DNA of 36,535 bases from Rhodospirillales bacterium (GTDB lineage Bacteria; Pseudomonadota; Alphaproteobacteria; Rhodospirillales; Casp-alpha2), in contig JAJFIJ010000301.1 of the NCBI GenBank assembly GCA_021775105.1, positions 1 to 36,535 of the forward strand. The letters are read 5' to 3'. The translations under genes and the position numbers were made by a program. The notes beneath the pieces are model-generated. The model ran no database searches, was not told where the DNA came from, and saw only the letters and a program-made list of their open reading frames with translations. Shown here piece by piece: positions 12,682 to 33,021 of this stretch; the stretch's first letter is position 1; each line of letters begins with the position of its first letter.

Positions 12682-13653
12682 TCAGACGGGTAGCACCTCA
12701 TCCGATTCGAGACCCGTCTCTTCCGCAACGCCAAGCATAATATTGAGATTCTGAACCGTCTGACCGGATGCCCCTTTACCCAGATTATCGAGCAGCCCGA
12801 CAACGACCGCCTGCTGATTTTTAGTGTTGGAAAAAACATGCAGGCGCAGCTCGTTGGTGCCATTCAGACTTTCGGGATCAAGTTTGCTCATTGTGGCGGA
12901 GTCAGCCAGCGGTGCAACCGTGACATACCGGCATCCGGAATAATGATCTGAAAGCGCCTGATGGACGGTTTCGGGAGACGGACTTCCCGGCAAAGACCAG
13001 AGTTGCAAGGGAATCTGAACCATCATCCCCTGACGGTAACGCCCAACGCTTGGTACAAACAATGCCGGATGTTCGAGACCGCTCCATCTGACGATTTCAG
13101 GCAGGTGTTTGTGCTTCAGGCCGAGGCCATAAGCGAAGAAGGCTGATTCTGTATGATCCGGAGCGTTTTCGTCCTCGAAAGAAGCGATCATCTGCCGACC
13201 ACCACCGGAATACCCGGAGACGGCATTGATGGTAACAGGCGAGTCGGCGGAAACCACACCAGTCTTGATCAATGGATGCAGAACCGAAACCGAGGTAATC
13301 GCGTAACATCCCGGATTCGTCACTCGGCCCGCATGGGCAATCAGTTCCCGTTGAGCGGGCTCATATTCGGGAAACCCGTAAGCCCATCCGTCAGCGACCC
13401 GGTGCGCGGTTGAGGCGTCTATAACCCGCGTATCCGGATTATTGATCATGGCGACGGCCTCACGTGCGGCATCGTCAGGCAGGCAGAGAATCGCTATGTC
13501 CGCATCGTTCAACAGCCCGGCTCGCGCCGCGGCGTCTTTCCGACTGGTTTCAGACAGACTGAGAAATTCAAGATCATCACGACCGGAAAGGCGCGCGCGG
13601 ATTTGTAATCCCGTCGTTCCGACCTCCCCATCGATGAAAATCTTGGCTGCCAT
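12682..13653 (-). CDS. argC: N-acetyl-gamma-glutamyl-phosphate reductase ArgC (short type)
   Basis: A 323-residue NADPH-dependent reductase of arginine biosynthesis, converting N-acetylglutamyl phosphate to the semialdehyde. The N-terminal IFIDGEVGTTGLQI is the nucleotide loop of the short ArgC type, NPGCYAIT holds the catalytic Cys, and the segment with VSGYSGGGRQM and GLGLKHKHLPE supplies the substrate-binding residues. The start at 13653 has AGGAG upstream; a longer in-frame version (to 13689) would add 12 residues without a better signal. In many alphaproteobacteria argC directly follows rplM-rpsI; here it lies about 11 kb from them. Confidence 0.95.
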   Translation of the reverse strand: MAAKIFIDGEVGTTGLQIRARLSGRDDLEFLSLSETSRKDAAARAGLLNDADIAILCLPDDAAREAVAMINNPDTRVIDASTAHRVADGWAYGFPEYEPAQRELIAHAGRVTNPGCYAITSVSVLHPLIKTGVVSADSPVTINAVSGYSGGGRQMIASFEDENAPDHTESAFFAYGLGLKHKHLPEIVRWSGLEHPALFVPSVGRYRQGMMVQIPLQLWSLPGSPSPETVHQALSDHYSGCRYVTVAPLADSATMSKLDPESLNGTNELRLHVFSNTKNQQAVVVGLLDNLGKGASGQTVQNLNIMLGVAEETGLESDEVLPV

Positions 13654-13770
13654 TATTCCTACTCCTGAAGTAACCCCGCGACCCGTCACGGGGAGGCGAT
13701 CATAGGTCGCGCTTCCAAAACGTCACGAATTTTCTGATGACATCAGGAAAAAATTTACCCCCGGCAAATC

Positions 13771-14352
13771 TTACCTGTCGTCTTCACTGGCATCAGGTCG
13801 TTCCGGGAGTTCGTTGCTTTGCGTTGCTTCGCTGACCGCCAAGCCAATCAATGAACCAGAATTATCAGTGACAATCTGCGCCGCAAGTAGGTTTTCGGGG
13901 TCTATAGCTCCAACGGATTTCGATGTCAAACCCTTCTCATTTGGCTCAGATCCGCCATTGGTCAGGGAGTTTGCTGCAAGGCGTTTCTGTATTTCCTGGG
14001 AGATCATATCTTCTATCGCTATGCGTTGATCGGCAGGCATGTCAGCCAATGCTTCTTCGCTCAATCCCAAAGCCTGCAACAGTTTTTCACGCAGCTCTTC
14101 TATCTTCTGTTTATGAACTTCCTCCGCATAGGCGCGCAACCCGTATTCGCGTATGAATTCCAGATCATCTTTATTGGCATCTTCTTTTGCAGGCTGTTGA
14201 GATGCCAGAATCTCATTTCGAGCGGCTTCATTTTCGGCCTTCAATCCTTCAGCAGAAAGTACTGATGAAAATGGCTCTGCTGGTTGCCGCTGGCGAAAAT
14301 CGACCAGTGAAATATTTACTACAACAGCGGACTGATCATTATCAATTTTCAT
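13771..14352 (-). CDS. Conserved hypothetical cytoplasmic protein with coiled coil
   Basis: A 193-residue acidic protein with no signal peptide or membrane helix. The centre (about residues 65-128) is strongly helical and charged, including EFIREYGLRAYAEEVHKQK and ELREKLLQALGLSEE, then MISQEIQKRLAA. It probably forms a coiled coil or helical hairpin. The ends look disordered. No enzymatic motif was found. I recall similar helical cores in hypothetical proteins of other Rhodospirillales, without known function. It sits between argC and a dehalogenase-like gene on the same strand, with gaps near 100 bp on each side, so it is probably transcribed alone. Confidence 0.65.
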   Translation of the reverse strand: MKIDNDQSAVVVNISLVDFRQRQPAEPFSSVLSAEGLKAENEAARNEILASQQPAKEDANKDDLEFIREYGLRAYAEEVHKQKIEELREKLLQALGLSEEALADMPADQRIAIEDMISQEIQKRLAANSLTNGGSEPNEKGLTSKSVGAIDPENLLAAQIVTDNSGSLIGLAVSEATQSNELPERPDASEDDR

Positions 14353-14442: not shown

Positions 14443-15168
14443 TCAGACCCAACCACCAGCAACAGGCAGGACATGTCCGGTGACAAACCCGCATCGCCCG
14501 GATGCAAAAAGAGCAATCAGTTCTGCGACTTCCTCCGGCTCTCCAAGTCGACCCAAAGGTATATTGCCCAGAATTTTTGAAAGCGCCGCCTCATTTTCAA
14601 GCAGTTCCGGCGGAAAGTAGTCCGGATTTTTTATAAAATTGGGCGCGATGGCATTGACTGTAATACCAAACCGGGCCAACTCCTTTGACAAACTGCCGAC
14701 CAGCGCATTGGTCGCGCCACGGGCTCCTGCATAGATGGAGTAATTCGCGATACCGCCAATCGGTGCAGCGGAGGAAACAAAAATGATGCTACCAGAATTC
14801 TGGTGTTTCATCTGTCGGGTAATATGGGTTGTCAACTCAAACGGCCAGACGGTCAGGGCTTCCAGCGCCTTTCTGTAGTCATCCGCACTTGCCTCATCAA
14901 TAGGCGCGCGTTCTGCCGGATAGGGATCGTTAGAGATCAGGGCATCAATGCGCCCGAACCGGGCTATGACGTCTTCCACAACTGCTTTTGGCGTAATGCA
15001 GGAGGAAATTTCGGCATCTGGAAATATTTTTGAAAATTCTGCGCGTGTGGCCTGGTCCCCGAATGTCATGTCATGACATACAACTGTCATTCCCTCGTCC
15101 AGCAATCTGGCAACGGCTCCTGACCCGACGAAGTGATTCACATGCGTGACCAGTGATACGATGTTCAT
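14443..15168 (-). CDS. Halohydrin dehalogenase-like SDR protein
   Basis: A 241-residue short-chain-dehydrogenase-fold protein whose motifs match halohydrin dehalogenases (HheA-HheG), which eliminate halide from vicinal haloalcohols to give epoxides without a nicotinamide cofactor. Instead of the SDR loop TGxxxGxG it has Thr8-x4-Phe13-x-Gly15 (THVNHFVG), the known HHDH signature. The catalytic set is Ser133-x12-Tyr146-x3-Arg150, with Arg where ordinary SDRs have Lys. Segments such as VVCHDMTF, ISNDPYP, DDYRKALEAL and RLGEPEEVAELIALFASG align by eye with HheC. The neighbouring minus-strand gene, 48 bp upstream, encodes a TPR-sulfotransferase. Activity is predicted, not shown. Confidence 0.8.
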   Translation of the reverse strand: MNIVSLVTHVNHFVGSGAVARLLDEGMTVVCHDMTFGDQATRAEFSKIFPDAEISSCITPKAVVEDVIARFGRIDALISNDPYPAERAPIDEASADDYRKALEALTVWPFELTTHITRQMKHQNSGSIIFVSSAAPIGGIANYSIYAGARGATNALVGSLSKELARFGITVNAIAPNFIKNPDYFPPELLENEAALSKILGNIPLGRLGEPEEVAELIALFASGRCGFVTGHVLPVAGGWV

Positions 15169-15216: not shown

Positions 15217-16842
15217 TCAGGAACGAGAATGCAGGACCTCAAAAAGCGGGGCCAGTTCTTTTTCATAACGTCGCCAGAGTTCGACAGAACTTTTGTAAAT
15301 AGGTGAACGCACCTGAGTCACGCTGGCCGTTTTAACGGGACGTCTGGTCTTGTGAAATTCGAGACAGGCATCGTCCCAGTCGAGGCCGCTATGGGCAATC
15401 AGTGCGCGTGATTGCCCTTCCTGATCATTAATCAGGTCTTCGTATTGAATATCATGGATCGCGCCGGGCAAGACATCATGCCAGTGAGTCATTAACTCTT
15501 CATATAAACGATAGTATTGCCCCAGTTCCTCCAGATCATAAGAGTATTCGTGCAGACTTCCAGGGAAATAGGTCTTGAAGATCGACAGACAGTTATCTTC
15601 TGGCATCCGTTTACAATGAATGATCTTGGCGTTTGGCAGGGCCAGTTTTATCAAGCCGATATGAAGAAAATTCTGTGGCATTTTGTCGGTGATGAAACGC
15701 GCATCTTTTGAATGGCATCGAAGTGCGTCGATATAGGTTCGGCCCATCTTCGCAAACCTTTGCGGATCGCTACTATGTATGTTGTCCGAATATTCATCTT
15801 GTGCCACCGTACCAAATGTGACCCTCACGACCTGGCTTAGCACCGATAGCTCTCCAGCACCGAAGACATCGGGATGGGATGCCAGTATCTGTTCGACGAG
15901 TGTCGTTCCGGAGCGCGGCATACCAAGAACGAAAACAGGTGTCGTATCAGGATCACCGGTGCCATTGAACCGGTCGAAAAGTGAGCGTGGAAACGTGTCT
16001 CTGAACCGGTCGAAATAGGCCTTCTGTTCTTCTGACGAATAATAGAAACTATCCCGTTTGAGCCGACTCCCCTCTGCCAGATATTCAAAGGCCTTTGCGT
16101 ACTCGCCAAGATCCTCATTTGCCTTGGCCAATCCATAGGCTACCTGATAGCGATCCTCATCTCTCATTCCCGGCTTGGCATAAAGGTTTTCCATGGCCTT
16201 GATGTCGTCATTGTATTCGCGATGTTTGGTTATACTTGCCAATTGGCGATGAGATACACCAAGTTCCGGCTGCAAGGAAATTGCATCCTGAAAGGCCTCT
16301 CTGGCCGCATCCAGTTGCCCATCCTCGCTTAGTACAACACCGAGATTCATGTATGCATCAATGAATGAAGGTTCGATATCTATGGTTTTCCTGAACCCGG
16401 CAGCGGCCTCAGTCGTTAGATCCAGATCCTTGTAGACATTGGCCAGGTTGAAATGAGCACCCATAAAGCCGGGCTTCAACGAGATTGCCGCCTCATAACA
16501 GGGGATGGCTTCTGTCAGTTTACCGGCTGCCAGAAGCGCATTACCGAGATTGTAATGGGCTTCTGGAAAATCGGCACGAAGAGCGATGACCTTGCGATAA
16601 TTTACAGCCGCATTATCAAATTCCCGAAGCTGCTCGTAGGCTATGCCCAGATTTAGCAACGCATCGATATGATCGGGAGCTGCACGTATCACCTGAAGAT
16701 AATTCTCTACCGCCTCGGCAATACGACCTTGCTGATGATCACCAAGCGCCTGCTGTAATACAAGATTGATATCTGCCCCGGAACCCCCGCCCGGTGCCTT
16801 CTTGTGTTGTTTGGCCAATCGGCGGCGTTCGGCTCGGTTCAT
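15217..16842 (-). CDS. TPR-repeat sulfotransferase
   Basis: A 541-residue two-part protein. Residues about 25-200 contain five or more tetratricopeptide repeats (for example AHYNLGNALLAAGKLTEAI and AYMNLGVVLSEDGQLDAA). Residues about 300-541 form a PAPS-dependent sulfotransferase domain with the 5'-phosphosulfate loop GMPRSGTTLVEQIL (307-320) and the later RSPIYKSSVELWRRY. Such proteins transfer sulfate to a glycan, peptide or small acceptor, the TPR part holding the partner. The acceptor is unknown. No signal peptide is seen, so it is probably cytoplasmic. It lies 48 bp upstream of the halohydrin dehalogenase-like gene on the same strand and may share a transcript. Confidence 0.85.
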   Translation of the reverse strand: MNRAERRRLAKQHKKAPGGGSGADINLVLQQALGDHQQGRIAEAVENYLQVIRAAPDHIDALLNLGIAYEQLREFDNAAVNYRKVIALRADFPEAHYNLGNALLAAGKLTEAIPCYEAAISLKPGFMGAHFNLANVYKDLDLTTEAAAGFRKTIDIEPSFIDAYMNLGVVLSEDGQLDAAREAFQDAISLQPELGVSHRQLASITKHREYNDDIKAMENLYAKPGMRDEDRYQVAYGLAKANEDLGEYAKAFEYLAEGSRLKRDSFYYSSEEQKAYFDRFRDTFPRSLFDRFNGTGDPDTTPVFVLGMPRSGTTLVEQILASHPDVFGAGELSVLSQVVRVTFGTVAQDEYSDNIHSSDPQRFAKMGRTYIDALRCHSKDARFITDKMPQNFLHIGLIKLALPNAKIIHCKRMPEDNCLSIFKTYFPGSLHEYSYDLEELGQYYRLYEELMTHWHDVLPGAIHDIQYEDLINDQEGQSRALIAHSGLDWDDACLEFHKTRRPVKTASVTQVRSPIYKSSVELWRRYEKELAPLFEVLHSRS

Positions 16843-22150: not shown

Positions 22151-23736
22151 TGGCAAACGATTATCAATATCAGAACAGTCTCGACTGGACACCTGAGGAT
22201 TTGTTCGCCAAGCACACCTTTACCGAGATCATTACCTCCAGCGATGCCCGTCTCCTGGGCATCAAGGGCATGTTATTGGCGCTAATCATGCTTGGCGTTG
22301 GCGGCATTATGGCGATGACCATGCGTCTTGAATTGCTGGAACCGGGTATCCAGTTCATTGGACCCAAACCCTATATTAACGCCGTCACCATCCACGGGCT
22401 GATCATGGTATTGGCCTATTCTGTTCCGTTCGCGACGGCGGCCCTTTACTTCATACTGCCCAGAACTCTTGGCGTGGACAGAATTTACCAGCCGTGGGCG
22501 GCGCATATGAGCTTCCTGACGCTGCTGATTGCCGGGGGACTGCTGTTCATTGCCCGGCCCGATTTCACCTGGGCGTTTTACGCGCCCCTGAGTCTTCGGG
22601 TGGCTACCGATATGGTCTGGATGGGCCATATCGCGATTATCCTAGTGGGAATTAGCGAGTTTCTGGGCGGAATTCCGCTCGTCACCACGGCATTGGCCTG
22701 GAAACGCCAAACCGGCGGGCGCTGGACGGACATGCCGCTTTCCGGTTGGGGCGCGTTGACTGGCGGATTGTTCCTGATTTTCTCGGCACCGATGTTGTCG
22801 TTGGTCGGATTGATCATGTTAACCGATTTTCTCGAAGTCACGGCCATCTACGACCCGGCCCGCGGCGGCGACGCGCTGACATTCCTGTTCATGAGCTGGT
22901 TCTATGGCCATCCGGCGGTCTACTTGCCGCTGGTTCCGCTGATTGCGGTCCTGTATCACCTGCTGCCAAAAATGCTCGGGCGCAACCTGTGGAGTCACTC
23001 CTCCGGCGTTATCGCTTTCGCGCTGCTGTTCGTTCTCGGTTTTGGGGTCTGGGTGCATCATTTCCAACCCAATTTCACGATTCACAGCCTGCTGAACTTC
23101 TTCTATCAGTTCATGACCATGATGATCATAATTCCGAGTTCGCTGCACGTCTTCAATTGGGTGGCCTCCATGTGGCAGGGGCAGATTTCACCTGAGACAC
23201 GGGCGTCAATTCCGTTCAAGTTCATATGCGGGGCGGTTTTCATGATAATTGTCGGCGGTGTGAACGGGTTTCTGAACGGATTGATTTCGGTCGATACGGA
23301 CTTCATCCACAACACCTACTGGCTGCCAGCCCATTTCCACGCCATGTTCCTGGGCTTTATCGGAATGATGACGATGGCCACTTTTTATTTCTTCTTTCCC
23401 TACATCACCGGACGGATGTTCAATGTAAAGCTGGCCAACCTGCATTTCTGGATCTGGCTGCCTGGCATCTTCGTTCAGGTAATGACTATGTTCTGGCTCG
23501 GATTGACCTATCACCCACGCTGGGTGGTGGATTATCTGCCGCTTCCGGAATGGGTGTCGGGGCAATTCTGGTTGTCGATCGCCGGATTCGCCAATGGCCT
23601 CGGCTTTCTTTTGTTCGTGATCAACATCCTGATCAGCGTACGCTCGGGCAAGCCGGTCACCAGCGACCCCTGGTCCATGCCGAACACCACACCTGGGTCG
23701 AAACCGGCCCCTGCCGCCGCCAATGCGGCAGAGTAA
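22150..23736 (+). CDS. Heme-copper oxidase subunit I, atypical B-like type
   Basis: A 528-residue, roughly 12-helix catalytic subunit. Heme and copper ligands: His82 (low-spin heme, VTIHGLIM), His254 with Tyr258 (FYGHPAVY, CuB and the cross-linked Tyr), His303-His304 (VHHFQ), and His395/His397 (PAHFHAMF). The A-type Glu after HP is replaced by Ala, and the usual K-channel Lys position is His333 (PSSLHVF), so proton paths differ from A-type oxidases. The retained Tyr favours O2 reduction; an alternative is a CuA-type nitric oxide reductase (NorSY/sNOR), also annotated as cox. The start at 22150 overlaps the subunit II stop. No subunit III or assembly gene is in the window. Confidence 0.86.
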   Translation: MANDYQYQNSLDWTPEDLFAKHTFTEIITSSDARLLGIKGMLLALIMLGVGGIMAMTMRLELLEPGIQFIGPKPYINAVTIHGLIMVLAYSVPFATAALYFILPRTLGVDRIYQPWAAHMSFLTLLIAGGLLFIARPDFTWAFYAPLSLRVATDMVWMGHIAIILVGISEFLGGIPLVTTALAWKRQTGGRWTDMPLSGWGALTGGLFLIFSAPMLSLVGLIMLTDFLEVTAIYDPARGGDALTFLFMSWFYGHPAVYLPLVPLIAVLYHLLPKMLGRNLWSHSSGVIAFALLFVLGFGVWVHHFQPNFTIHSLLNFFYQFMTMMIIIPSSLHVFNWVASMWQGQISPETRASIPFKFICGAVFMIIVGGVNGFLNGLISVDTDFIHNTYWLPAHFHAMFLGFIGMMTMATFYFFFPYITGRMFNVKLANLHFWIWLPGIFVQVMTMFWLGLTYHPRWVVDYLPLPEWVSGQFWLSIAGFANGLGFLLFVINILISVRSGKPVTSDPWSMPNTTPGSKPAPAAANAAE

Positions 23737-23749
23737 GGGAGATAGAACA

Positions 23750-24841
23750 ATGATTTGGAAAATTTGGACAATCTTGATGGTCATTTTTGTCGGTGGCGTC
23801 TGGCTGTTGGCAATCCCGTATTCGCCGGAACCCATCCTGAAGACAGGAACGGTGATCCCGATCTATCGTGCCATGGGCATGGTGCCGGAACAGGGAAAAA
23901 TTACGGTTTCCGAAGATATCGGACACGACGTTTTTGAGGTGCCGCCGACCGACGCCGAGCACCTCAAGGAGGCGATGGCGACCATGAATACGGGCGGTCA
24001 GGGCATGGAGGGTATGGCCAAGCCGACCGCAGAGGGCATGGCCGGGATGAAGACGGAAGATCAGGCCATGGAGGGCATGGCCAAGCCGACCGCAGAAGGC
24101 ATGGCCGAGATGAAGACGGAAGATCAGGCCATGGAGGGCATGGCCAAGCCGACCGCAGAGGGCATGGCCGGGATGAAGACGGAAGGCCAGGCTATGGAGG
24201 GCATGGCCAAGCCGACCGCAGAAGGCATGGCCGGGATGAAGACGGAAGGCCAGGCCATGGAGGGCATGGCTGAAAAAGCGGGAGAACACGCCGAGGAAGG
24301 TATGGCCAAGGAAGCAGGGAAGCACGCTGAGGAAGGCGAAGTGCATGCCAAGGAAGAGGAGGCTGGAGGTCACGGGGGTGGAAGCGTCGCCGAGGGTCTG
24401 GTGGTCGTCGCCCAGGGCACGATTGCCGAGGTCGATGCGGCCTTGGCTGCCAAGGGCTTGAAGGTTAATACCGTCGCCATTGTCGACATGAAGGAATGGG
24501 GGTTCGAAACCGGCATGGTCTCGGGAATGCCCGGTCAACGAATCCGCCTGAAGGTCCGTAACACCGGCAATATTCCTCATGAATTCATGATCATGAACGG
24601 AGCCGCCATGAATGCGGTTAACTACCGTTTGACCCGGCCCGACTGGAACCTCCTTGAACATGAGGCGTTAAGCGAGGTTCCATTTATCATGCCGGGCGAC
24701 AGTGTCGATCTGGTTGTCGAGATTCACAAGCCGGGAATTTGGATGTACATGTGCATGTTTCCCTATCACATGCAGTTGGGCATGATGGGTATGCTCATGA
24801 CACCTGATATGATGGGAAAGATGGACGGCATGAAGATGTAA
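23750..24841 (+). CDS. Membrane-anchored cupredoxin with Met-rich tandem-repeat linker
   Basis: A 363-residue protein in three parts. Residues 1-24 form a membrane anchor. Residues 85-174 hold four perfect-length 21-residue repeats (unit begins MEGMAKPTAEGMAGMKTE) plus a partial fifth, then a Glu/His/Ala-rich segment (EEGMAKEAGKHAEEGE) to about 210. The last 120 residues form a cupredoxin with likely copper ligands His277 (HEFMIMNG), Cys335, His340 and a Met near 345, in CMFPYHMQLGMMG; the C-terminus is again Met-rich. Met clusters bind Cu(I), so the linker may store or relay copper, and the cupredoxin may pass electrons to CuA. It lies 13 bp after subunit I and ends the operon. Confidence 0.85.
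   Translation: MIWKIWTILMVIFVGGVWLLAIPYSPEPILKTGTVIPIYRAMGMVPEQGKITVSEDIGHDVFEVPPTDAEHLKEAMATMNTGGQGMEGMAKPTAEGMAGMKTEDQAMEGMAKPTAEGMAEMKTEDQAMEGMAKPTAEGMAGMKTEGQAMEGMAKPTAEGMAGMKTEGQAMEGMAEKAGEHAEEGMAKEAGKHAEEGEVHAKEEEAGGHGGGSVAEGLVVVAQGTIAEVDAALAAKGLKVNTVAIVDMKEWGFETGMVSGMPGQRIRLKVRNTGNIPHEFMIMNGAAMNAVNYRLTRPDWNLLEHEALSEVPFIMPGDSVDLVVEIHKPGIWMYMCMFPYHMQLGMMGMLMTPDMMGKMDGMKM
24002..24271 (+). repeat. 63-bp coding tandem repeat, four full units plus part
   Basis: Units at 24002-24064, 24065-24127, 24128-24190 and 24191-24253 are each 63 bp (21 codons) and differ at only a few positions (for example GGG/GAG and GAT/GGC codons). A partial fifth unit follows to 24271. Near-identity at synonymous sites points to recent expansion by slippage or unequal recombination. 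The repeat keeps frame, so copy number changes would alter only linker length. Confidence 0.9.
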
Positions 24842-26676: not shown

Positions 26677-26746
26677 GGAAAGCAAGATCACAATATGACA
26701 ACTTTCTGCCGTGATTCGTTATTTATCGTTTTACAGGCTGAATGTT

Positions 26747-27265
26747 ATGACCGCCGCCGTCTCTCGGGCAGAATTTTTAAGAGGGCGCTTCAGCGCTGAT
26801 ACCAGTGCCCTGCGCCCGCCCTGGGCTCTGAATGAAACAGATTTTACAGCCCGCTGTACCCGATACATGTCGTGCGTTGACGCTTGCCCGGAGAATATCA
26901 TTTTCAAAGGTCAGGGTGGTTTCCCGGAAATTTCGTTCGCCGACGGCGAATGCACATTCTGCGCAGCTTGCGTCAAGACGTGTCCGGTTGGTGCCCTGAG
27001 TCCAACGCAAGACGAGAGGAACCGAAATACCAAGCCTTGGAATCTTCATCTGTCCGTATCAGACAACTGTTTATCCACGAAAGATGTGGTCTGCCGGATA
27101 TGTCCCGACAAATGTGACGCCAGAGCCATTCGATTTAAACACCCCGCCGCCAATGGCAAACCCGCAATTGACCAGGACCTCTGCACGGGTTGCGGTGCCT
27201 GCGTTGCGCCCTGCCCCGTCGGCGCCCTCACCCTATCACCTGTTCATCAACACAAGGCTGCATGA
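26747..27265 (+). CDS. napF: NapF, ferredoxin-type maturation protein of nitrate reductase
   Basis: A 172-residue cytoplasmic iron-sulfur protein thought to help load or repair the NapA cluster. Four-cysteine groups for three [4Fe-4S] clusters are visible (CTRYMSCVDACP; CTFCAACVKTCPVGA; CTGCGACVAPCPVGA), plus an extra group CRICPDKCDA. The N-terminus VSRAEFLRGRF is the usual NapF start; the ATG at 26747 gives this form, whereas the GTG at 26711 would add 12 unlikely residues. It overlaps napD by ATGA. It is the first gene of the operon, downstream of the FNR box. Confidence 0.92.
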   Translation: MTAAVSRAEFLRGRFSADTSALRPPWALNETDFTARCTRYMSCVDACPENIIFKGQGGFPEISFADGECTFCAACVKTCPVGALSPTQDERNRNTKPWNLHLSVSDNCLSTKDVVCRICPDKCDARAIRFKHPAANGKPAIDQDLCTGCGACVAPCPVGALTLSPVHQHKAA

Positions 27266-27546
27266 TCATGGAAGAACAATCAGAATTCAATATTTGCGGC
27301 GTGTTTGTGCAAACAACGCCCGAACATCTGGGCAGTGTCGAAACCACGCTCGCGCAAACACCGGGTATTGATATTTACCAAACCGAGAAGGACGGCCGGA
27401 TGGTCGTCACCATAGAAGATACGCCGGACAAATACGCCAGCGAAACGTTGACGGACCTGCGTTCGGTGGACGGGGTGCTGTCTGCATCCCTCGTTTATCA
27501 CCGTTGCGATATCGAATCTCAAATGTCGGAGGACATAACATTATGA
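27262..27546 (+). CDS. napD: NapD, NapA-specific chaperone
   Basis: A 94-residue cytoplasmic chaperone that binds the Tat signal of NapA and holds export until the cofactor is in place. The ferredoxin-like fold is indicated by [14 protein letters not shown], the central [10 protein letters not shown] and the [16 protein letters not shown] end, all typical of NapD. The start ATG at 27262 overlaps the napF stop as ATGA; a second ATG at 27268 is possible. It overlaps napA the same way. Confidence 0.93.
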
Positions 27547-30059
27547 AGATGAACAGACGCGATTTCATCAAATCGAACGCGGCCGCCGCGACAGCAGTTG
27601 CCGCAGGAATAAGTCTGCCCGCTACGCTTAAAGACGCCAGTGCCGCCAGCGATGGCATCCGTTGGGACAAAGGCGTGTGCCGCTTCTGCGGAACCGGTTG
27701 CGGTGTGCTGGTTGGCACCAAGGATGGCCGGGTTATTGCCACTCAGGGTGATCCGGATGCCCCTGTAAACAAGGGCCTGAACTGCATCAAAGGCTATTTC
27801 CTGTCAAAAATCATGTACGGCAAAGACCGCCTGACCAAACCGCTGCTACGCGGCAAGGACGGTAAATTTGACAAGGGTTCCAATGAGTTTTCTGAAATTT
27901 CCTGGGATCAGGCCTACGATATCATGGCCGAGAAATGGAAAGCCGCAATCGACCCGGAAGACCCGAAAGGGGCTACTAAGGTGGGTATGTTCGGTTCCGG
28001 GCAATGGACCATCTGGGAAGGTTATGCCGCCGCCAAAATGATGAAAGCAGGCCTGCGCTCCAACAATATCGACCCCAATGCCCGTCACTGCATGGCCTCT
28101 GCTGTCGGCGCATTCATGCGCGGCTTTGGTATTGATGAGCCGATGGGCTGTTATGACGATCTCGAGCACGCGGACGCCTTCGTCCTCTGGGGTGCAAACA
28201 TGGCCGAAATGCACCCGATTCTTTGGTCACGCCTGACCAATACGCGCCTGACCAAACCGGGATCAGAGGTTCATGTCCTGTCGACGTTCGAACATCGCTG
28301 CTTCGAGTTGGCCGACAACGGGTTGGTATTTACGCCGCAGACTGATCTGGCGATCCTCAACTACATTGCCAACTACATCATCGAAAACAAGGCCTACAAC
28401 AAGGACTTCCTCGACAAGCATGTCAACATCACCAAAACCGTGACCGATATCGGTTATGGTCTGCGCCCCGAACATCCGCTGGAAAAGAAAAAGACCGGCA
28501 AGGGTGGCAAGCTGACCAAGATCGCGTTCGAAGAGTATGCCAAGGCGGTCAGCAAATATACGCTCGATTATACCAGCGAACTTTCCGGTGTTCCCAAGGA
28601 AAACCTGTTGAAATTGGCCAAGCTTTATGCGGATCCGAAAAAGAAAATCGCTTCCTACTGGACGATGGGTTTCAACCAGCATACCCGTGGCGTCTGGGTC
28701 AATGGCCTGCTCTATAACGTGCATCTGCTGATGGGCAAGATTTCCGAGCCCGGCAACAGCCCGTTCTCATTGACAGGACAACCGTCAGCCTGTGGCACAG
28801 CGCGCGAGGTAGGCACCTTCGCCCACCGCCTGCCTGCTGATCTGGTGGTTATGAAGAAACCGCACCGTGCGGCGGCTGAAAAAATCTGGAAAGTGCCGGA
28901 AGGTGTTATCCCACCGAAACCGGGTTATCACGCGGTCCTGCAAAACCGCATGCTCAAGGATGGCAAACTCAACGCCTACTGGGTCATGTGCACCAACAAT
29001 ATGCAAGCTGCGCCCAACATGAACGAAGAAGGCCTTCCGGGCTATCGTAACCCGAAAAACTTCATTGTCGTATCAGACCCCTACTTCACGGTCACCGCTC
29101 AGGTTGCCGATCTTGTGCTGCCGACATCCATGTGGATGGAAAAGGAGGGGGCTTATGGCAATGCTGAACGCCGCACCCAGTTCTGGCGTCAGCAGGTGAA
29201 GGGGCCGGGTGAATCCAAATCCGATATATTACAGGTGATGGAATTCTCCAAGCGTTTCACCCTTGCCGATGTCTGGCCGAAAGCCGTCATTGAAAAAAGT
29301 GGCTATGGTGCTGACAAGTCACTTTATGACGTTCTGTTCCAGAACGGACAAGTCGACAAGTTCCCGGCTGATCCTGTAAAAGACGCGGCTGGCAACTCCT
29401 ATGGCAACGATGAATCCGAAGCACTCGGGTTCTACGTACAGAAAGGCATTTTCGAAGAATACCGGCGCTTCCAGTATGAGGGCCCGAAACCTGGCCATGA
29501 AATGGCCGAGTTTGAAGCCTACCACAATTCCCGTGGTCTGCGTTGGCCGGTCATCGACGGCAAGGAGACACTGTGGCGGTTCCGCGAAGGATATGACCCG
29601 CATGTGCCAAAAGGGGCGGACGTGAAATTTTACGGCAAACCCGATGGCAAGGCGAACATCATCTTTGCGCCTTACGAACCCGCCGCCGAAAGCCCGGATA
29701 AAGATTATGATCTGTGGCTGTCAACGGGCCGTGTTCTTGAACACTGGCATTCAGGGTCAATGACCCGCCGGGTTCCGGAACTATACAGGGCGTTCCCCAA
29801 TGCCAAGATTTACATGCACCCTGACGATGCCAAAAAGCGTGGATTCAAACGTGGACAGGAAGTCAAGGTGCAGACCCGGCGCGGTGAGCTTCTAACCCGG
29901 ATCGAGACCCGGGGCCGCAACAAACCCCCCGTTGGCCTGGTCTTCATGCCCTGGTTTGATGCCGGCCAGTTGGTCAACAAACTGACGCTCGACGCCACTG
30001 ATCCGCTATCGAAAGAAACGGATTTCAAAAAGTGTGCGTGCCGGGTGGTCAAGGCCTAG
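27543..30059 (+). CDS. napA: Periplasmic nitrate reductase catalytic subunit NapA
   Basis: An 838-residue molybdenum enzyme reducing nitrate to nitrite in the periplasm. A Tat signal (NRRDFIK at 4-10, then an Ala-rich core ending near KDASAA) leads into the [4Fe-4S] motif Cys46-x2-Cys49-x3-Cys53 with Cys81 (CRFCGTGC and GLNCIKGY). Cys183 in [17 protein letters not shown] is the molybdenum ligand. The bis-MGD binding segments include [30 protein letters not shown], and the C-terminal [15 protein letters not shown]. It starts by overlapping napD (ATGA) and is followed by a strong stem-loop before napG. Confidence 0.98.
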
Positions 30060-30074
30060 CACCTTCTGTTTAAA

Positions 30075-30098
30075 GGGCCGGTGGGTCACCACCGGCCC
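30075..30098 (+). other. Intercistronic stem-loop napA-napG
   Basis: GGGCCGGTGG and CCACCGGCCC form a perfect 10-bp GC-rich stem with a GTCA loop, 15 bp after the napA stop. No T run follows on the plus strand, so it is not a normal terminator. It could protect the 3' end of a napFDA mRNA segment or attenuate transcription. Confidence 0.7.
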
Positions 30099-30115
30099 CG
30101 GGACAGAATTTAGTT

Positions 30116-30898
30116 ATGTTTTCGGGATACGGCAAAGTGAATGAGCACAGCACCATAAGCGCAGCAAAGACGAACCGCAGAAAATTTCTGGCTGATACGG
30201 CCAGAACTGCCTGCGGTGTTGGGATCGCTGGCCTGGGACTGGTCCATTTGACCAATCAAGCTAAATCCCTGCCGATTGCTGCCGTGCGTCCACCCGGTGC
30301 CGGCGAAAATGCGGCATTCCTGTCGGCCTGTGTTCGCTGTGGGCTTTGTGTAAACGACTGCCCTTACCCGACCCTCAAGCTCGCAAAAATTGAAGATGAT
30401 ATTCCGGTTGGTACGCCGTATTTCGTCGCCCGCGACTATGCCTGTGAAATGTGCGATGACGTTCCATGTGTTGCCGCCTGCCCGACCGGGGCGCTCGACA
30501 AACGCCTCACCAATATTGATGATGCCCGTATGGGACTGGCCGTTCTGGCCGACGAAGAAACCTGCCTCAATTTCCTGGGGCTCAGATGCGATGTCTGTTA
30601 CCGGGTATGTCCGCTGATGGGCAAGGCTATTACGCTCGAGCAGCAGCCCAACATACGGACTGGCAAACACGCAACCTTCATTCCCACCGTGCACAGCGAA
30701 TTCTGCACCGGTTGCGGCAAGTGTGAGTATGCCTGCGTCCTCGAAGAAGCCGCCATCAAGGTCCTGCCCGGCGAAGTTGCCAAGGGGAAGCTTGGTAAAC
30801 ACTACCGACTGGGCTGGAAAGAAAAAGAGCGGCGTGGTGAAGCTCTAGTCAAGGGTATTACCGATCTGCCTGACCGGATGCCGGAGGTCAGACCATGA
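30116..30898 (+). CDS. napG: NapG, iron-sulfur electron-transfer subunit
   Basis: A 260-residue periplasmic ferredoxin-like protein passing electrons from quinol through NapH toward NapC/NapB. A Tat signal ([11 protein letters not shown] near 22, AGLGLVHL) precedes four [4Fe-4S] groups: [43 protein letters not shown] and [15 protein letters not shown]. Length is normal. It begins after the napA stem-loop and overlaps napH by ATGA, so GH are produced as a unit, as required for their membrane complex. Confidence 0.94.
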
Positions 30899-31803
30899 GC
30901 GCAAAAACCAACCCCGGTTATGATGCTGTACAGGTAAAAGGATGGCTCACGGCCCATCGTTGGCTGATCCTGCGCCGCCTGTCTCAAATCGGAATCTTAA
31001 CTTTGTTCCTGATTGGCCCGTTGACCGGCTACTTCCTTGTCAAAGGATCGATTGCCTCAAGCCTGACGCTTGATTTTCTGCTCCTGACAGACCCGTATAT
31101 TCTGCTCCAGACGTGGATTGCCGGCCATACCATTGAAGCAACGGCGCTTATCGGCGCGCTAATCGTCTTCACCGCTTATCTTTTGATTGGTGGACGTGTT
31201 TACTGCTCGTGGGTCTGCCCGGTGAACGTCATTACCGATGCTGCCCACTGGTTCCGCACACGGCTGGGCATTCAGGGCGGAATCAAATTTTCCAGAAAGG
31301 TACGATACTGGATGCTGGGCATGACCCTGATCGTCGCCTATTCGACGGGCATTCTGGCGTGGGAACTGATTAATCCGGTGACTGTGATTTATCGTGGTCT
31401 GATCTTCGGTATTGGCTGGGCCTGGGGTGCCGCACTGGTGCTGTTCATATTTGATCTGCTGATCAGTGAAAGGGGCTGGTGTAGCCATCTCTGCCCGGTT
31501 GGCGCGTTTTATGGAACACTGGGAAAGTTCTCCATACTTCGGATTCTCGCGGTTCGGCGCGATGACTGTAACGACTGCATGGATTGTTACGCCGTTTGTC
31601 CCGAACAGCAGGTCATATCGCCGGCCCTCAAGGGTGCCAAACATGGTCTCGACCCGGTTATTCGCGCCGGGGCATGTACCAACTGCGGACGCTGTATTGA
31701 TGTCTGCGCGCTGAAAGTTTTTGAATTCGGTTCGCGTTATTCCGAACCTTCCGTCGCCACCGGTCAGCCAGAGTCTGAACCGGAACTGAAAAAGGTTGCC
31801 TGA
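30895..31803 (+). CDS. napH: NapH, membrane quinol-oxidising iron-sulfur protein
   Basis: A 302-residue inner-membrane protein with four helices (about 28-48, 75-103, 139-159 and 168-190). Loops carry the conserved CSWVCPVN and CSHLCPVGA motifs of NapH/NosR-type proteins. A C-terminal cytoplasmic part has two [4Fe-4S] groups ([26 protein letters not shown]). It supplies quinol electrons to the Nap system together with NapG. The start overlaps the napG stop by ATGA. It is followed by a small stem-loop. Confidence 0.95.
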
Positions 31804-31823
31804 CTGTCGGCACACACCGACAG
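31804..31823 (+). other. Intercistronic stem-loop napH-napB
   Basis: CTGTCGG and CCGACAG pair as a 7-bp stem with a CACACA loop immediately after the napH stop. No T run follows. It is the second of three stem-loops inside the nap operon. Confidence 0.6.
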
Positions 31824-31883
31824 CAAACATGGAGTTTTAAAATGAAAAATCCAACTATGCGTTATCATTTAGGAGGTTATGCC

Positions 31884-32327
31884 ATGAAACGCCTGATCCC
31901 TTTGGTGCCAACAGGTCTTGCCATTGTTCTGCTTGCTGCGTCACCAATGAATGCTGTTGCGGCTGAGGAAATTTCCTCATTGCGTGGGCCGCTTGCCCTT
32001 GAAGGTCAGAAATCGCCACCCCCTGTTTTCAAACTGAAACTCGATCTGGAAAAATTTGATCGTAACTTCAAGACCCAACCGCCACTGATCCCGCACAAAG
32101 TGAAAAAATACAAGATCAATCTGAAGGCAAATCGTTGCTTGAAGTGTCACGACAAGGCCACCTACAAGGAAGAAGAATCGCCAATGATTGGTGTCAGTCA
32201 TTATCTGGATAAGGACGGCAAGGAAGGCAAGAAGATCAACATGAAGCGCTACTTCTGCACCCAGTGTCATGTCCCGCAGGTTGACGCCAAACCACTGGTT
32301 TCCAACACCTTCAAGGGCACAAAATAG
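31884..32327 (+). CDS. napB: NapB, diheme cytochrome c subunit of nitrate reductase
   Basis: A 147-residue periplasmic electron donor to NapA. A signal peptide (about 1-27, ending MNAVAAEE) precedes a small domain with two c-heme motifs, CLKCH and CTQCH, and the distal His residues SHY and PHK. ALEGQKSPP and PLIPHKVKKYKI are usual NapB stretches. An upstream in-frame ATG (31842) is rejected because a perfect AGGAGG lies 7 bp before the ATG at 31884. Stem-loops flank it on both sides. Confidence 0.94.
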   Translation: MKRLIPLVPTGLAIVLLAASPMNAVAAEEISSLRGPLALEGQKSPPPVFKLKLDLEKFDRNFKTQPPLIPHKVKKYKINLKANRCLKCHDKATYKEEESPMIGVSHYLDKDGKEGKKINMKRYFCTQCHVPQVDAKPLVSNTFKGTK

Positions 32328-32353
32328 CAACCTGGCGGATCGATGCTTTTTTT

Positions 32354-32388
32354 CTGACCAATACTTGAACAGCTCAGGTATTGGTCAG
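32354..32388 (+). other. Intercistronic stem-loop napB-napC
   Basis: CTGACCAATAC and GTATTGGTCAG form a perfect 11-bp stem around a 13-base loop. The T run lies before, not after, the stem, so it does not look like a terminator for plus-strand transcripts. It is the third stem-loop of the operon. Confidence 0.65.
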
Positions 32389-32433
32389 ATCGTTGCCCAG
32401 CACCCACAACCAACTGAAAGAAGAACCTGAACT

Positions 32434-33021
32434 ATGGATCATAACCAGGAACAAATGAGCTTGTGGCAGAAATTAAAATCGCCCAGTCGGACTACCTCAC
32501 TCGGTGGTCTGCTGGTCGTTGGCATCGTGTTGGGTATTTTCGGTTGGGGTGGGTTCAACTGGGCTATGGAAATGACCAACACCGAAACCTTTTGTGTATC
32601 GTGCCATGAAATGCGTGAAAACGTGTATGAGGAATACAAGGAAACCATTCACTACAACAATCGTACAGGCGTGCGCGCAACCTGCCCGGACTGCCATGTT
32701 CCGAAAGAATGGATTCACAAGGTTGTCCGCAAAATTCAGGCTTCGAACGAGCTGTACCACAAGCTTTTGGGCACGATCGACACTCGGGAAAAATTTGAAG
32801 CCAAACGTCTCGAATTGGCGAAGAATGTTTGGGCGGCAATGGAAAAGACCGACTCACGAGAATGCAAGAATTGCCATAATTTTGAGTTTATGGATTTGAC
32901 CAAACAAGAAAGAAGGTCACAGAAACGGCACGCAAAAGCACAGACCAAAGGTCAGACCTGTATCGCATGTCACAAAGGGATCGCCCACGAACTTCCCGAA
33001 GGTTGGGACGAGGAAGGTTGA
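32434..33021 (+). CDS. napC: NapC, membrane-anchored tetraheme cytochrome c
   Basis: A 195-residue quinol dehydrogenase of the NapC/NirT family that feeds NapB. A single N-terminal helix (about 22-44) anchors a periplasmic domain with four c-heme motifs: CVSCH (54-58), CPDCH (84-88), CKNCH (144-148) and CIACH (176-180). KGIAHELPEG is the usual C-terminal family ending. With NapGH also present the operon has two quinol routes. The gene ends the operon and converges on a minus-strand gene 8 bp away. Confidence 0.95.
   Translation: MDHNQEQMSLWQKLKSPSRTTSLGGLLVVGIVLGIFGWGGFNWAMEMTNTETFCVSCHEMRENVYEEYKETIHYNNRTGVRATCPDCHVPKEWIHKVVRKIQASNELYHKLLGTIDTREKFEAKRLELAKNVWAAMEKTDSRECKNCHNFEFMDLTKQERRSQKRHAKAQTKGQTCIACHKGIAHELPEGWDEEG

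Follow-up and report, generated by a model that had tools for sequence, protein, structure and literature searches.

Does the open reading frame at positions 14443–15168 of a 36,535-nucleotide contig from a Rhodospirillales bacterium (JAJFIJ010000301.1; this whole stretch of DNA is referred to as the window) encode an SDR oxidoreductase, or a halohydrin dehalogenase (HHDH), as the initial annotation had proposed? HHDHs remove chlorine or bromine from haloalcohols, giving epoxides; members of the family are homotetramers that release halide and do not need NAD(P). They serve in biocatalysis for making and opening epoxides; the number of HHDHs available is small beside that of SDRs. The window gene very probably encodes a cofactor-independent HHDH, an activity read across from its homologues, and the family placement is supported by sequence motifs, a search of solved structures, fold comparison and phylogeny, all of which agree with the family first proposed. 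The protein is a further member of an already known small family and an enzyme of the expected kind, so that as a discovery of its kind it is routine; it adds an uncharacterised HHDH branch whose identity to solved structures does not exceed about 48%.

Sequence motifs and automatic annotation

The gene and its two diagnostic motifs are located as follows.

14443–15168, minus strand: predicted halohydrin dehalogenase gene, 241 amino acids (open reading frame; solved-structure matches to 6a41, HheC and HheA; tree; model with pLDDT 92)
15124–15147, minus strand: motif 1, T8-x4-F13-x-G15 (THVNHFVG), putative nucleophile (halide) pocket replacing the SDR nucleotide loop (motif definition in PMC4989007 and PMC11976700)
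14719–14772, minus strand: motif 2, S133-x12-Y146-x3-R150, predicted catalytic triad (sequence reading)

The reading frame starts with ATG and is preceded, about 10 nucleotides 5' of this codon, by a ribosome-binding-like AGAGGG. HHDHs differ from SDRs in an N-terminal T-x4-F/Y-x-G, as against T-G/A-x3-G/A-x-G, and in a catalytic S-x12-Y-x3-R, as against S-x10-14-Y-x3-K (PMC4989007, PMC11976700). Both HHDH motifs occur in the window protein, spelled T8-H-V-N-H-F13-V-G15 where SDRs have their glycine-rich nucleotide loop and S133-AAPIGGIANYSI-Y146-AGA-R150 with Arg for the SDR Lys, and neither classical SDR signature (the nucleotide loop or S-x10-14-Y-x3-K) is present, THVNHFVG and S-x12-Y-AGA-R standing there instead. 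The initial annotation had read both motifs exactly so, with a numbering one ahead of HheC (S133/Y146/R150 versus S132/Y145/R149), and had rightly called the pair published HHDH hallmarks (PMC4989007, PMC11976700).

Across all loci examined, both motifs with correct spacing were found in 34 of the 2337 open frames that were 180 amino acids or longer, and because every one of these (34/34) lay in the locus of an HHDH homologue or was in the window itself, their joint presence here is not due to chance. The genome that contains the window has a single HHDH gene, and a further 34 matches in it are more distant SDRs; among the seven SDR paralogues read out, neither HHDH motif was found (0/7) and five carried S-x12-Y-x3-K.

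General profile libraries recognized the protein only as an SDR. Pfam returned adh_short_C2 and adh_short, both generic SDR models, and NCBIfam returned 196 SDR-type families, with none among the best 25 of the 196 reaching its cut-off. An automatic pipeline is therefore very likely to say 'SDR family oxidoreductase', in line with the earlier expectation that the gene would be annotated as an ordinary SDR. The claim that the enzyme is 'hidden' holds for such general libraries; it overstates the novelty, since the motif pair already serves as a published route for mining HHDHs (PMC4989007).

Proposed reaction and gene neighbourhood

In the mechanism derived from HheC, Ser holds the substrate oxygen, Arg drops the pKa of Tyr and Tyr accepts the proton, while the halide displaced by the oxygen sits in an anion pocket that replaces the nicotinamide site (PMC4989007). 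By analogy, the window protein would perform the same type of reaction: the hydroxyl of a vicinal haloalcohol would be bound by Ser133 and deprotonated by Tyr146, whose pKa would be lowered by Arg150; the oxygen would then attack the neighbouring carbon to form the epoxide, and the leaving halide would enter an anion pocket lined by the T8-F13-G15 and P176-N177 loops. In the reverse direction, an epoxide could be opened with halide, azide, cyanide or nitrite.

Three genes surround the predicted HHDH gene.

15217–16842, minus strand: TPR-repeat and sulfotransferase (Sulfotransfer_3) protein, 48 nucleotides upstream of the HHDH gene (Pfam)
13771–14352, minus strand: 193-amino-acid protein downstream of the HHDH gene, with no Pfam match
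12682–13689: semialdehyde dehydrogenase (argC-like), after the gene for the 193-amino-acid protein (Pfam)

No window neighbour recurs beside the HHDH homologues in the loci of 24 relatives, the sole match being a weak one (30%) to a distant oxidase-like gene in one of these loci. Nothing was found that places the TPR-sulfotransferase protein in the same pathway as the HHDH and it is not common to the relatives' loci; a sulfate-related pathway was set aside, as this gene does not recur there. At L023:6494-7984, in a Rhodospirillaceae MAG, a sulfatase-like gene lies immediately 5' of the HHDH homologue, and the parallel with the sulfotransferase gene upstream in the window is probably a coincidence.

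In the window, the genes adjoining the HHDH gene include neither an epoxide hydrolase nor any other gene for dehalogenation. Elsewhere in the same genome, contig C159 matches the epoxide hydrolase N-terminal family (PF06441, 4e-35) in an open reading frame of only 223 amino acids, apparently truncated, and contig C114 gives a marginal match to the limonene epoxide hydrolase family. The lack of linkage is usual among HHDHs, because only two of the HHDH genes known in 2016 accompany an epoxide hydrolase (PMC4989007). The most likely role is stand-alone degradation or detoxification of haloalcohols, with an epoxide hydrolase supplied from another contig. Searches of the literature for a natural HHDH substrate returned nothing specific.

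A stand-alone gene devoid of catabolic neighbours would also suit an enzyme whose active site and chemistry are those of an HHDH but whose physiological reaction is another, such as anion opening of an epoxide or the expulsion of a different leaving group, and a 2016 review leaves room for other HHDH roles (PMC4989007); positive evidence for any specific alternative reaction is absent, however, and we consider this reading unlikely. It seems similarly doubtful that, in the window enzyme and the alphaproteobacterial group surrounding it, the HHDH site serves a non-dehalogenation reaction with dehalogenation as a side activity. Haloalcohol degradation or detoxification remains the preferred role, and stand-alone alphaproteobacterial HHDH genes of this type would be a place to test the natural role of HHDHs.

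Relatives of solved structure and predicted fold

A phmmer search of solved structures returned 6a41 as the best match (E 5e-72, about 48% identity over the whole length), the rest of the top ten being HheC and HheA entries (1e-49 to 5e-43; HheC 2e-48, HheA2 3e-44). These were followed by 8xxb, which is HheD8 (9e-30), and then by the FabG 4nbu (9e-27), the best-scoring SDR reductase for which no HHDH assignment has been reported.

The entry 6a41, titled 'Dehalogenation enzyme', has both motifs and the same fold as the window protein and differs from it in about half of the residues; a literature search found no paper on it. HheC from Agrobacterium radiobacter AD1 (38% identity) has the same Ser-Tyr-Arg triad and a motif 1 with Phe, but possesses a C-terminal extension that is absent from the window protein, and its gene, unlike that in the window, adjoins an epoxide hydrolase gene (PMC11976700). 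HheA/HheA2 (1zmo, 4z9f), 37–38% identical in structural alignment, also contain both motifs but fall on another branch of the tree, while HheD2 (7b73), HheD8 (8xxb) and HheB (4zd6) are cofactor-free HHDH relatives with both motifs, on a branch that does not include the window protein.

An AlphaFold2 model of the window protein, built from an alignment that comprised 24 relatives, had pLDDT 91.9 and pTM 0.90, with the last three residues poor. It matched HHDH structures best: in VIA-align, 6a41 came first (Z 35.1, rmsd 1.7, 239 residues aligned), followed by HheC (mutants, Z 33–34; 1pwx with bromide, Z 32.7) and HheA (Z 31.3), with the best FabG at Z 30.4, and Foldseek ranked the structures in the same order. 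The predicted fold by itself separates HHDHs from SDRs only slightly (Z 31–35 versus 30), because the two share one superfamily; it is therefore the motifs and the tree that carry the family argument.

Phylogenetic placement and homologues

A maximum-likelihood tree of 50 proteins was built in a careful IQ-TREE run with HheA2, HheB, HheC, HheD2, HheD8, 6a41 and SDRs as references. The HheD2, HheD8 and HheB references came from a search with a D-type relative as query, and the HheA2 query sequence was matched letter for letter by a solved-structure entry. For most of its length, the HheC sequence in the tree agrees with the alignments obtained for HheC entries.

A branch with 100/100 support separated the NAD(P)-dependent SDRs from the window protein, its alphaproteobacterial homologues, the HHDH references and 6a41, in a tree covering HheA to HheD out of the HheA–HheG range initially suggested, HheE, HheF and HheG being absent. 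HheG is missing because L054, considered as its homologue, was rejected as an ordinary SDR. The window protein groups with two homologues (100/99), nested in a nine-member group (96/88). A separate branch (100/99) unites HheB and HheD, and the window protein falls outside it, on the side of HheA, HheC and 6a41 (87/84); its sub-type can be given no more finely than 'HheA/HheC side', since HheA and HheC are long branches whose placement shifts between quick and careful trees.

Among 200 related genomes, 12 had a match with an E-value no higher than 1e-28, some of these being D-type relatives or proteins lacking the catalytic Tyr. The scan that covered 84,980 species genomes gave a group of alphaproteobacterial homologues, mostly from MAGs and 45–64% identical to the window protein, from Rhodomicrobium (64%), Rhodospirillaceae, Rhodobiaceae, Parvibaculum, Oceanibacterium and others. 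Nearly all of these keep both motifs, the exceptions being L036 (partial) and L034 (ambiguous bases), and among relatives Ser133, Arg150, P176-N177 and N80-D81 show little or no variation. No homologue was found in the viral contigs searched; the plasmid search gave one annotated haloalcohol dehalogenase, from Microbacterium (38%). That the protein should be an ordinary NAD(P)-dependent SDR oxidoreductase with a loop differing by accident, as the SDR families of the general libraries and its SDR fold would allow, is highly improbable against a T-x4-F-x-G in place of the nucleotide loop and an Arg150 in place of Lys that are both kept in relatives, and a tree that sets it outside the SDRs with full support.

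A sister clade lacking the catalytic tyrosine

A clade of HHDH-like proteins has motif 1, Ser133 and Arg150 but no catalytic Tyr (e.g. SCRTELPQPGGAMPDMAR). It comprises L039:7941-8741, L041:7983-8747, L045–L048, L050, L052, L065, L016–L018, L038/L020, L040, L042, L043 and L049, is supported at 98/91 in the 50-protein tree, is spread over several phyla and is about 33–41% identical to the window protein, the solved structure nearest to L041 being HheA. Comparison of the neighbourhoods revealed no common neighbours, the family models searched included none specific to the clade, and literature searches for HHDH-like proteins without Tyr returned nothing specific. If these proteins are enzymes, their chemistry cannot be the standard Tyr-based one of HHDHs, and the clade may be fresher than the window HHDH itself.

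Other features of the window

Reading of the open frames at 26711–33021 indicated a periplasmic nitrate-reductase-like cluster of an ordinary kind (molybdopterin oxidoreductase, ferredoxin-type proteins and cytochromes). A cupredoxin-like protein encoded at 23723–24841, adjoining cytochrome oxidase genes, contains a repeated 'MEGMAKPTAEGMAGMKTE' stretch.
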